Shown here: positions 6,013-9,139 of the stretch, in pieces
Layout: each line of letters starts with the position of its first letter
Position numbering within the stretch: position 1 is the stretch's first letter
DNA from: an uncultured Succinivibrio sp.
GTDB taxonomy: Bacteria; Pseudomonadota; Gammaproteobacteria; Enterobacterales; Succinivibrionaceae
Length of the DNA: 33,231 bases
Assembly: GCA_902785325.1 (NCBI GenBank)
Contig: CACZXZ010000024.1
Location: 1-33,231, forward strand
Direction: 5' to 3'
Notes under the pieces: generated by a model
What the model was told of the DNA's origin: nothing
Database searches by the model: none
The model's input: only the letters and a program-made list of their open reading frames with translations
Position numbers and translations under genes: made by a program

Positions 6013-6636
6013 ATGGCAAAATATACAGGTCCAGCCCTGAAATTAAGCCGCCGTGAGGGTGTAGACTTATTCTTAAAGTCTGGCGTTCGCGCAATTGATA
6101 CAAAGTGCAAGCTAGACACAGCACCTGGTCAACATGGCGCTAACAAAGCACGCCTATCAGATTACGGCATGCAGTTACGTGAGAAGCAAAAAGTTCGTCG
6201 TATCTACGGTGTTCTAGAGCGTCAATTCCGTAACTACTACAAGAAAGCTTCAAGAATGTCTGGTAATACTGGTGAGAACCTATTACAACTTCTAGAGGCT
6301 CGTTTGGATAACGTAGTTTATCGTATGGGTTTCGGTTCAACCCGTATGGAAGCACGTCAGTTAGTAAGCCACAAGGCTATTACTGTTAATGACCAAATCG
6401 TAAATATTCCTTCTTACCAAGTACAGCCAGATGATGTTGTTGCTGTTCGCGAAAAGGCAAAGAAGCAATTACGTATTAAGGCAGCAATCGACTTATCAGG
6501 TCAACGCGCTACTAAGCCAACATGGATCGATGTAGATCACGATCACATGAAGGGTACTTATAAGAGCAATCCTGAGCGTTCTGAGTTACCTTCTGATATT
6601 AAAGAAGCACTCATCGTCGAATTGTATTCTAAGTAA
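6013..6636 (+). CDS. rpsD: 30S ribosomal protein S4, alpha-operon autoregulator
   Basis: S4 nucleates 16S rRNA folding and in E. coli represses the alpha operon by binding the rpsM leader. At 207 aa it matches the family (E. coli 206). Seen blocks are [20 protein letters not shown], the invariant [19 protein letters not shown], and the S4 RNA-binding domain [20 protein letters not shown] followed by [10 protein letters not shown]. The conserved leader element in front of rpsM makes the feedback circuit likely here too. TGGAGA precedes the start. Confidence 0.97.
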
Positions 6637-6683: not shown

Positions 6684-7676
6684 GTGTCTGTTGTTGAACT
6701 GCTAAAGCCAAAGCCAGTTAATTATACTGAAATCAGTCCTAATCATGCACGTTTAGTGCTTGAGCCTTTAGAGCGTGGTTTCGGCTATACATTAGGTGTT
6801 GCTTTAAGCGGAATTTTACTAAAGACCCTATCTGGAACTGCAGTTGATGCTTTCCAGATGGCGGGCGTAAAGGATGTTAACAGCTCAAAAGATGATCTTG
6901 TTGAAAGCATTTTTGAAGTAGTTATGAACTTAAAGTCCTTAGCTATTGCTTCTCAAGAGCCATTAACCGAGCCTGTTTGGTTATCAATCGATAAACGTGG
7001 TGAAGGTGAAGTTCACGCTTCAGATATCGTTTGTCCTGAAAATTTATCCTTTGTAGACCCTGAAGCCCGTATTTGCACTTTAAAAGGTGCTAAGGCTTCG
7101 TTGTCGATGAAACTTCGCATTTCATCAGGCCAAGGTTATGTAATGACTACCTCTGATAAGCATATTCCAGCTGATGCAGAGAACGTTATCCTAATCGACG
7201 CAAACTACTGCCCAATTCGTCGCTATGTGTACGAAGTTGAGTCAGCTCGTGTTGAGCAGCGTACAGATTTAGATAGATTAGTTATTGATTTAGAGACTAA
7301 TGGAACAATTGCTCCAGAAGTTGCTCTAATGAATGCTTCTAACTTAATCTGTGAATGCATGGATAACATCATTGATAAGGAAGAGATCAGCGAGCGTGTA
7401 AGCGCTCCTGTAGCTCCACCAATGCCTGATCCTGTGTTAATGCAACCAGTTGAAGATCTAGAATTAACTGTTCGTTCAGCTAATTGCTTAAAAGCGGAGT
7501 CAATCATTTACATCGGTGATTTGGTACAAAGAACTGAAGTTGAGCTTCTAAAGACTCCAAATCTAGGTAAGAAGTCATTAAATGAAATTAAGGACGTTCT
7601 TGCTCAGAGAAACTTGTCTTTAGGTATGCGCGTAGCAAACTGGCCACCTCCAGGACTTCGTACATCAAATAACTAA
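6684..7676 (+). CDS. rpoA: RNA polymerase alpha subunit, first copy, divergent N-terminal domain
   Basis: Alpha directs RNA polymerase assembly through its N-terminal domain and contacts UP elements and activators through its C-terminal domain. This 330-aa copy occupies the standard place after rpsD and starts at GTG with GGGG upstream. The C-terminal domain is intact: [15 protein letters not shown] holds the equivalents of E. coli R265, N268 and C269, and NLGKKSL those of G296, K298 and S299. The N-terminal domain is odd. [10 protein letters not shown] is kept, but E. coli NALRRILLSSMPG reads [13 protein letters not shown], so S42 and G43 stand where R44 and the beta-binding R45 should be. 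The VEIDGVLHEYS, GIGPVTA, RGRGYVP and GRLL blocks are also lost. [10 protein letters not shown] (188-197), near the beta' contact region, is fully kept. Likely functional but specialised. Confidence 0.93.
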
Positions 7677-7697
7677 TTGTTTTAGAAGGAATAAAAA

Positions 7698-8087
7698 ATG
7701 CGTCATCGTCAAAGTGGCCGTCATTTAGGTCGTACAGCTGCACATCGTGCTGCTTTATACCGTAATTTAGCTAAGGCATTGCTAACCTTCGAAGTTATCA
7801 AGACTACTGTTCCAAAGGCAAAGGAATTACGTCGCTTCGTTGAGCCATTAATCACCTTAGCAAAGGTTGATACTGTTGCAAATCGCCGTCTAGCATTTGC
7901 TCGTCTTCGTGATGAAGCTGTTGTAGCAAAGCTATTCAACGTAATCGGTAAGCTATCAGCTAACCGTAACGGTGGTTACACCCGTATCCTAAAGGCTGGT
8001 TTACGTGCATGTGACAGAGCACCAGTTGCTTATATCATGCTAACAGACCGTCCTGAAGTTGCTGAAGAAGAAAAGGCAGCTGAATAA
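7698..8087 (+). CDS. rplQ: 50S ribosomal protein L17
   Basis: Large-subunit protein near the exit tunnel. Starts [17 protein letters not shown]; the family core [20 protein letters not shown] and [13 protein letters not shown] is present, and the C terminus [21 protein letters not shown] is typical. 129 aa against 127 in E. coli. AGAAGGA precedes the ATG. In E. coli rplQ ends the alpha operon; here it is flanked on both sides by rpoA genes. Confidence 0.97.
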
Positions 8088-8092
8088 TACAT

Positions 8093-8112
8093 ATGGGCGC
8101 ATATGCGCCCAT
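8093..8112 (+). repeat. 20-bp perfect palindrome between rplQ and the second rpoA
   Basis: ATGGGCGCAT followed by ATGCGCCCAT, five bases after the rplQ stop. As RNA it would fold as GGGCGC / GCGCCC plus flanking pairs. The following bases, ATTCAGATTTCTTG, hold no strong U-run, so it looks like a partial terminator or a processing/stability stem that could lower expression of the downstream gene relative to the upstream operon. Confidence 0.65.
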
Positions 8113-8143
8113 TCAGATTTCTTGCTTACTAACTGTACAAAAC

Positions 8144-8158
8144 GAGGGTGAAACCTTG
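8144..8158 (+). promoter_or_regulatory. Shine-Dalgarno that decides the TTG start of the second rpoA
   Basis: GAGGGTG lies 5 nt before an in-frame TTG, giving a product whose N terminus aligns with E. coli alpha to within one residue. The upstream ATG at 8093 lies inside the palindrome with no ribosome-binding site, and the ATG at 8168 has none either. Confidence 0.65.
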
Positions 8159-9139
8159 GATCAGATCATGGATTCTATTAAGCCAAACATTAAAGATGTA
8201 ACTGAGCTTTCACATAACGTAAGCCGTGTTATTCTTGAGCCATTTGAGCGTAACTATGCTCAAATCGTAGGCACAGCACTCCGTCGTATTATGCTGTCCT
8301 CTATTCCTGGATATGCCATCACCTCAGTTGAAATTGATGGTGTAGTGCATGAATACAGTGCAGTAGAAGGCATTCAAGAAGATATTCTTCTTATTCTATT
8401 AAACTTAAAAGAAGTTGCTGTAGCTTCTGAAGGTTCTCTACGTGATGAACCTGTTCTTCAAATCAAGAAGAAAGGTATTGGTCCTGTAACTGCAGGTGAT
8501 ATCCAATGCCCAGCAGGTGTTGAAATCCGTAATCCTGACCAAATCATCTGTCACTTAACAGATGAGAATAAAGAGTTAAACATGACCCTACATGTAACTC
8601 GTGGTCGTGGTTATGTTCCTTCAGTAAGTCGTCCAGTTTCAGATGGCACCGAAGAGAGATTCATTGGCAGATTGCTAATTGATGCTTCATATTGCCCTGT
8701 ATTAAATGTTGCAGTTCATACTGCTCCTATTGCTGACGATCAAGAGCAACTAATTCTTGATATCGAAACTAATGGAACAATTGATCCTAAGAATGCTGTT
8801 GGTATTGCAGCTACAATTTTTGCTGATCAATTAAATTCATTCGTTGATATCAGAAATTCAGTAGCACCTACTGAGTCTGCTTCATCAAGACCTTCAGTAG
8901 ATCCTAAGTTATTATGTGCTGTTGAAGATCTAGAGTTAACAGTTCGTTCTGCTAACTGCTTAAAGACCGAGGGTATCAAGTACATCGGTGATTTAGTTCA
9001 GAAGACTGAAGTTGAATTATTAAAGACTCCAAATCTTGGTAAGAAGTCATTAACTGAGATTAAGGATGTTTTAGCTGAGAGAGGATTATCTCTAGGTATG
9101 CGCCTCGAGAACTGGCCTCCTGCAGAGCTAGAAAACTAA
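8156..9139 (+). CDS. rpoA: RNA polymerase alpha subunit, second copy, complementary N-terminal domain
   Basis: A second full-length alpha (327 aa from the TTG start) directly after rplQ. It keeps what the first copy lost: [13 protein letters not shown] with R43-R44 (equivalents of E. coli R44-R45), [48 protein letters not shown] and [12 protein letters not shown]. It has lost what the first copy keeps: LERGFGHTLG reads [10 protein letters not shown], and [12 protein letters not shown] reads [12 protein letters not shown]. The C-terminal domain ([39 protein letters not shown]) is nearly that of the first copy. Synonymous differences show that the two are not a recent duplication. The likely role is the beta-contacting partner of an alpha heterodimer. 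It ends the operon and is followed by a strong terminator. Confidence 0.93.

Follow-up and report, generated by a model that had tools for sequence, protein, structure and literature searches.

We identified two genes for the alpha subunit of RNA polymerase in the window, a 33,231-nt stretch of DNA from an uncultured Succinivibrio sp. whose contig belongs to a 2.28-Mb genome (assembly 97% complete). Both rpoA open reading frames are full-length and lie in the alpha operon in the order rpsD, rpoA copy 1, rplQ, rpoA copy 2 (Table 1). Searching the genome with PF01193 gave these two genes and no other (62.1 bits for copy 2 and 48 bits for copy 1, cut-off 24). That two full-length rpoA genes flank rplQ in one operon, as an earlier reading made from the letters alone (the sequence-only reading) had it, is confirmed. 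The genome search returned one rpoB and one rpoC. By copy 1, the closest named relatives among the 14 loci found are an "Aeromonadales" metagenome assembly (91%) and Succinivibrio and related records (86-88%).

Table 1. Genes and elements of the alpha operon, in positions of the window
Feature	Position	Strand	Remarks
rpsD	6013..6636	+	Upstream neighbour of copy 1 in the alpha operon
rpoA copy 1	6684..7676	+	330 aa from a GTG start; predicted alpha-II, facing beta-prime
rplQ (ribosomal protein L17)	7698..8087	+	Separates both rpoA genes wherever a two-copy locus was read
GC-rich palindrome (hairpin)	8093..8112	+	Between rplQ and copy 2; + strand without a clear T-run
Ribosome-binding region GAGGGTGAAACC	8144..8155	+	Ahead of the copy 2 start
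rpoA copy 2	8156..9139	+	Probable TTG start, from conservation, 327 aa; predicted beta-facing alpha-I

As listed, the open reading frame of copy 2 opens at 8093. A motif-guided search over 43 loci found the TTG at 8156, behind GAGGGTG, conserved in 42, with GTG in the remaining one, and the real start is probably this TTG, not the first position of the listed frame. Hairpins at the junction of rplQ and copy 2 also occur in many relatives. Divergence of the two proteins is largely confined to the N-terminal domain (NTD): in the window the NTDs are 32% identical and the C-terminal domains (CTDs) 82%.

Alpha matches were found in 52 of the 56 Succinivibrionaceae genomes searched; the other four are drafts of 77-89% completeness. 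By a hand count from the genome search and the loci read, two alpha genes are present in 45 of the 52 and a single one in six (genera g5 and g30); in one (G015) copy 2 lies at a contig edge. The order is always rpsD, copy 1, rplQ, copy 2 in loci holding both copies; the copies of G005 are on two separate contigs, where order is not visible. The N-terminal reading frame of one copy 2 gene, L034, from a metagenome assembly, is interrupted. Single-copy relatives have rpoA directly after rpsD. In the 16 other families sampled from the order, at one genome per family, rpoA is single-copy.

A class-wide draw covered 370 gammaproteobacterial genomes at least 90% complete, 357 of them with an alpha match. 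Eight genomes besides the window's own gave two matches, and only the Francisellaceae (G116, G238, G326 and G400) are a clear second case. The two matches of G214 and of G266 are two stretches of one open reading frame, those of G335 look like one gene split over two contig ends, and G260 is a draft, 4% contaminated, in which the copies sit on different contigs. Within the order of the Francisellaceae, two matches were found in 28 of 30 Francisellaceae and one in the other two, and of three sister-family genomes, two gave one match and one gave none. We found no paper on rpoA of Succinivibrionaceae, Succinivibrio or Anaerobiospirillum in a literature search in which subscription journals were thinly covered.

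In a tree of ribosomal proteins S4 and L17 (67 genomes), the two-copy genomes group to the exclusion of the six with one copy (92/84, not starred) and divide into a main clade (36 genomes), to which the window belongs, and an early-branching clade (8 genomes). In a 59-row tree of the NTD, one branch sets off every copy 1 protein sampled and another every copy 2 protein (100/99 each), so a single duplication suffices. The stem branch of copy 1 has 0.79 changes per site, that of copy 2 0.46. Both copies are under purifying selection, with a median dN/dS over 44 pairs of 0.106 for copy 1 and 0.082 for copy 2 (highest pair 0.36 and 0.31, respectively), compared with 0.037 over 3 single-copy pairs. 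Relatives thus carry both copies, with their order conserved and under such selection. Decay of either copy into a pseudogene, the outcome that the sequence-only reading named as refuting, is not supported in these relatives, given the dN/dS values and the conserved order.

The motif losses first seen in the letters were largely recovered by comparison with E. coli. Copy 1 has S42-G43 at the positions of R44-R45 and matches the VEIDGVLHEYS block at 3 of 11 positions, and it retains ERGFG and the 10-residue block that forms the beta-prime loop. Copy 2 has the reverse pattern: R44-R45, HEYS and RGRGYVP are kept, ERNYA replaces ERGFG, and IADD----QE, with a four-residue deletion, stands at the 10-residue block. 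The proposed loss of GIGPVTA and RGRGYVP from copy 1 holds in part, as GEGEVHA and SGQGYVM are each identical at 4 of 7 positions. Match to E. coli for these two blocks is 0.60 and 0.63 in 36 main-clade copy 1 proteins versus 0.73 and 0.80 in 42 single-copy alphas, and because the losses are partial we give them little weight. The overall pattern is not due to chance, as it is the same over 36 copy 1 and 35 copy 2 proteins of the main clade.

We scored retention, by majority rule over these 36 and 35 proteins, at 103 NTD positions whose conservation among 23 single-copy alphas is 90% or more. Forty-five sites are kept in both copies, 23 are lost in copy 1 only, 22 in copy 2 only and 13 in both. 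R44-R45 and HEY are each found in 0/36 copy 1 and 35/35 copy 2 proteins, and RTDL (195-198) in 35/36 copy 1 and 0/35 copy 2. The loop at 186-202 is 17 residues long throughout the 42 single-copy alphas and the 36 copy 1 proteins but 13 long in 31 of 35 copy 2 proteins; identity of the 10-residue block in copy 1 is 1.00 (rounded, n=36).

According to a study of Francisella polymerase (PMC3294249), the E. coli beta footprints cover 30-55 and 65-75 and the beta-prime footprints 175-185 and 195-210, and R45A abolishes alpha2-beta assembly in E. coli. Sites lost in copy 1 only fall 9 times in beta and 0 times in beta-prime footprints, and those lost in copy 2 only 7 and 5 times (Fisher p 0.045). 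The seven copy 2 losses within the beta footprint are explained by overlap of the footprints with the dimer helix. The proposal that the lost residues lie on the beta and beta-prime faces thus stands as a tendency toward the faces mapped in E. coli, the footprint test being weak by itself. Other residues cited as beta or beta-prime determinants speak against a simple division: L48, K86, V173 and V180 are conserved or conservatively changed in both copies and show no split, and K200 is R in 35/36 copy 1 proteins and mixed in copy 2.

The dimer interface is divided as well. In the cluster described in the same study (PMC3294249), F35, T38 and L39 of one monomer contact I46, S50 and Q227 of the other. 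T38 is kept in 36/36 copy 1 and 0/35 copy 2 proteins, and R33 in 36/36 and 5/35. F35 is present in 25/36 copy 1 proteins (Y in 11) and changed in 35/35 copy 2, and L39 is present in 27/36 copy 1 proteins (I in 9) and kept in only 9 copy 2 proteins. The partner residues behave conversely: I46 is kept in 35/35 copy 2 proteins, S50 in 1/36 copy 1 and 34/35 copy 2, and Q227 in 5/36 and 35/35. With T38 and mostly F35 and L39 in copy 1, and I46, S50 and Q227 in copy 2, a heterodimer would have one ancestral contact cluster nearly whole and one re-made, and neither homodimer would have a fully ancestral cluster.

The CTDs show no such division. The eight residues that we take to be their DNA contacts (R265, N268, C269, N294, G296, K298, S299 and E302) are all present in 36/36 copy 1 and 35/35 copy 2 proteins of the main clade, as in the early-branching clade (8+8 proteins) and Francisellaceae (4+4), so both CTDs should still be competent for DNA binding. 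On average, CTDs are 0.84 identical in pairs from one genome and likewise 0.84 across genomes (NTDs 0.32). Conservation alone therefore explains their likeness, and we rejected gene conversion between them. The fixed CTD positions suggested by the sequence-only reading would follow only from the predicted orientation of the dimer, the two CTDs being nearly alike.

The split seen in the main clade is not complete across the whole family. In the eight genomes of the early-branching clade (INTERMEDIATE), RTDL is absent from copy 2 (0/8), and copy 1 keeps it in 8/8, together with Arg-Arg in 8/8 and HEY in 6/8. Arg-Arg is thus present in both copies (8/8 each), and T38, S50 and Q227 are kept 8/8 in both; S49, E72, G73, D77 and R150 are already mostly lost from copy 1. 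This clade looks like an evolutionary intermediate. We infer obligate heterodimerisation, as the sequence-only reading did, but the claim does not suit the family as a whole because early-clade copy 1 keeps Arg-Arg, mostly HEY, and the beta-prime loop (8/8).

The clades also differ between rplQ and copy 2. The gap measures 158-180 bases in the early-branching clade and has a median of 80 over 35 main-clade loci. A consensus scan, which says nothing on actual transcription, found a sigma-70-like promoter scoring at least 9 in 7/8 early-clade loci (shuffle p <=0.05 in 5/8) and in none of the 35 main-clade loci (shuffle p <=0.05 in 1). A T-rich tail follows the best hairpin in 6/8 early-clade loci and in 4/35 main-clade loci. 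Judging from these contrasts, copy 2 is probably served by a promoter of its own in the early-branching clade and by operon read-through in the main clade.

Assembly of an alpha1/alpha2 heterodimer has been shown in vitro for Francisella RNA polymerase (Mukhamedyarov et al. 2011, PMC3294249). As in Succinivibrionaceae, there are two full-length alphas, with R45 and HEY in one and the beta-prime loop in the other. Francisella chains 6wmp_A and 6wmp_B serve here purely as PDB sequence matches: copy 2 scores 210 bits against alpha1 and 152 against alpha2, and copy 1 188 bits against alpha2 and 168 against alpha1. Over 11 Francisellaceae pairs, alpha1 and alpha2 carry Arg-Arg in 11/11 and 0/11, HEY in 11/11 and 0/11 and RTDL in 0/11 and 11/11, respectively. 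The 186-202 loop has 13 residues in 7/11 alpha1 proteins and 12 in the other 4; the four-residue-shorter form of those 7 is that of the 31/35 Succinivibrionaceae copy 2 proteins. The arrangements differ. Both Succinivibrionaceae genes flank rplQ in the ribosomal operon, whereas Francisella alpha2 lies outside it, as the sequence-only reading stated and as the loci examined and PMC3294249 agree. In Succinivibrionaceae the slot after rpsD holds alpha-II; in Francisellaceae, read at this place in four loci, it holds alpha-I. Q227 has diverged in Succinivibrionaceae copy 1, but all 22 Francisellaceae alphas retain it, and single-copy and intermediate relatives are present within Succinivibrionaceae, unlike Francisellaceae as far as seen here.

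The two families have lost the same faces from corresponding partners. In the set of 42 single-copy alphas, 91 sites are conserved. At 25 of these, each family has lost the residue from one paralogue but not from the other, and 22 of the 25 agree in direction (Fisher p 0.00021); L47, V121 and L133 are discordant. With the first 23 single-copy alphas, chosen independently of the motifs, 24/27 agree (p 6.9e-05). An earlier version with 4 Francisellaceae pairs gave 22 versus 5 (p 0.0018), and the early-clade pair compared with Francisellaceae gave 17 versus 3 (p 0.0014). Because neighbouring sites are not independent, we ran a circular-shift control, in which 1/90 shifts (42-alpha set) and 0/102 (23-alpha set) reached the observed score, and 0 to 2 at other thresholds, near the limit. 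By a hand count of footprints at the 22 concordant sites, alpha-II losses fall 7:0 on beta and beta-prime and alpha-I losses 2:5 (p 0.021). The assignment of copy 2 as beta-side alpha-I and copy 1 as beta-prime-side alpha-II, put forward by the sequence-only reading, is supported by the footprint tendency, the conserved pairs and this same-face loss. Most likely the Succinivibrionaceae pair works as the Francisella pair does, and it probably arose separately.

The likeness could instead reflect common descent, if one family passed an alpha-II gene to the other; this concerns origin only and is compatible with heterodimer function. Trees of the NTD join Francisellaceae alpha2 with copy 1 (99/99; 98/99 in later trees), also with 70 asymmetric sites removed (95/98) and with the early-branching clade alone (93/80). 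However, the best CTD tree places alpha2 beside a single-copy alpha from the sister family (89/63) and another beside G120/G330 (94/73), in neither case with copy 1, and when 103 role-associated sites are removed the copy 1 clade excludes alpha2 (93/98) and alpha1 plus alpha2 is not rejected (p 0.20). With slower Francisellaceae, alpha1 groups with its sister family (99/98), and monophyly of alpha1 and alpha2 is disfavoured there (AU p 0.018; 0.045 with the sister family included), the AU-test groups having been named after the first tree; other values are 0.056 in the first tree, 0.031, 0.295 without copy 1, and 0.41 for the CTD. Transfer is further favoured by alpha2 staying on the E. coli side when copy 1 is left out (91/87) and after the 103-site removal (96/93), by a CTD that does not reject alpha2 with copy 1 (AU p 0.23), and by the location of Francisella alpha2 outside the ribosomal operon (PMC3294249). 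We lean towards convergence strong enough to mislead the tree, as do the CTD and site-removal tests, and consider movement of the gene unlikely. The specific course, in which alpha2 would have been acquired from or given to the copy 1 lineage and the resident alpha would then have lost its beta-prime face, has a similarly small chance of being correct; if true, half of the polymerase platform would have spread by horizontal transfer.

Other alternatives concern function. Homodimeric and heterodimeric polymerases might coexist, and the cell could then regulate genes by alpha composition. A copy 1 homodimer looks feasible in the early-branching clade because both contact sets are kept there (Arg-Arg, HEY and RTDL, with T38, S50 and Q227), and a weak alpha1 homodimer interaction was observed in Francisella (PMC3294249). 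Such mixed populations are nevertheless quite improbable, as main-clade copy 1 lacks R45, the residue at which substitution abolishes E. coli assembly, in 36/36 proteins and copy 2 lacks RTDL in 35/35. Copy 1 might also be a former polymerase subunit that now acts as a regulator, or as a duplicate in decay, titrating alpha partners. The loss of R44-R45 and HEY and the longer stem branch would fit, yet its low median dN/dS, practically invariant 10-residue block, complete set of eight CTD contacts (36/36) and conserved place in the ribosomal operon all speak against it. Moreover, copy 2 alone has no beta-prime loop, so that loop must come from elsewhere, and we regard this explanation as very improbable.

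Given these analyses, we consider it highly probable that copy 2 is a beta-facing alpha-I and copy 1 a beta-prime-facing alpha-II, which together form an oriented heterodimer and a convergent second case. We propose that rpoA was duplicated on the stem of most Succinivibrionaceae, leaving one copy on either side of rplQ, and that the two asymmetric roles within the dimer were then split between the copies. The beta-recruiting face (R44, R45, S49, H66-Y68, G73 and D77) would have stayed with copy 2 and the loop facing beta-prime (190-199) with copy 1, and the interface would have diverged in a complementary manner, as detailed above. The core enzyme is predicted to assemble as alpha-I (copy 2), alpha-II (copy 1), beta and beta-prime in a fixed order, and neither copy is expected to form a working homodimer.

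The rpoA of E. coli K-12 belongs to the same protein family, has the CTD determinants and occupies the operon place of copy 1, but it is one gene whose homodimer does both jobs. Archaeal Rpo3/Rpo11 and eukaryotic RPB3/RPB11 lack alpha CTDs. Like the pair described here, they are asymmetric alpha-like pairs with a counterpart of R45 in one partner, but they are ancient and of unequal sizes (PMC3294249), whereas both partners here are bacterial alphas of the ordinary kind, their CTDs about 84% alike. Two rpoA genes are also mentioned there for Chloroflexus, Streptomyces avermitilis, Psychromonas ingrahamii and Leptospira borgpetersenii, and by description the last two have identical recent copies, unlike those here (PMC3294249). 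An asymmetric alpha pair was known from Francisella; new here is a second bacterial lineage, apparently asymmetric, with a different gene arrangement and roles swapped between loci.

The living single-copy and intermediate relatives in one family make the route from homodimer to heterodimer testable step by step, a route that was taken anciently by archaea and eukaryotes. Both families represent a natural mutagenesis of alpha, from which beta-only or beta-prime-only residues can be read. The Succinivibrionaceae are gut bacteria that include cultured strains, and if the order of their alphas is fixed, activators could address one CTD by its position.

Both alpha genes of the window begin with a non-ATG codon, GTG in copy 1 (the rpoA preceding rplQ) and TTG in copy 2 (the rpoA following it). 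The TTG start was assigned by conservation, and it is conserved in 42 of the 43 loci. Some loci carry extended copy 2 reading frames of 355-383 amino acids with split Pfam matches, which look as if they were genes with internal insertions. The N-terminal frame of copy 2 is broken in a single metagenome assembly (RUG260), reflecting either an assembly error or a mutation.

Pairwise alignment to the E. coli proteins, carried out for the proteins of genome G000 alone, revealed approximately 146 additional residues in beta, between E. coli positions 412 and 416, and 26 additional residues in beta-prime at 593.

Coordinates of the features described here
Feature	Locus	Position
GTG start, copy 1	window	6684
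TTG start, copy 2	window	8156
GC-rich palindrome	window	8093-8112
rpoB	L122 (G000, contig C30)	138-4676
Broken copy 2 frame	L034	6413-6560
Long copy 2 frame	L035	6405-7508
Long copy 2 frames	L053, L061/L062, L068, L084, L086-L089, L091-L092	

The gap separating rplQ from copy 2 is far longer, at 140-520 bases, in the 10 genomes of genus g2 (L064, L069-L077), whose named locus is L041 (Anaerobiospirillum). In the window this gap holds a GC-rich palindrome, and the hairpin it forms has a T-rich tail when read on the minus strand. Many genomes of the main clade (36 two-copy Succinivibrionaceae) have a hairpin in the same gap, with a sequence that differs among them. This hairpin is a candidate attenuator, mRNA stabiliser or minus-strand terminator.
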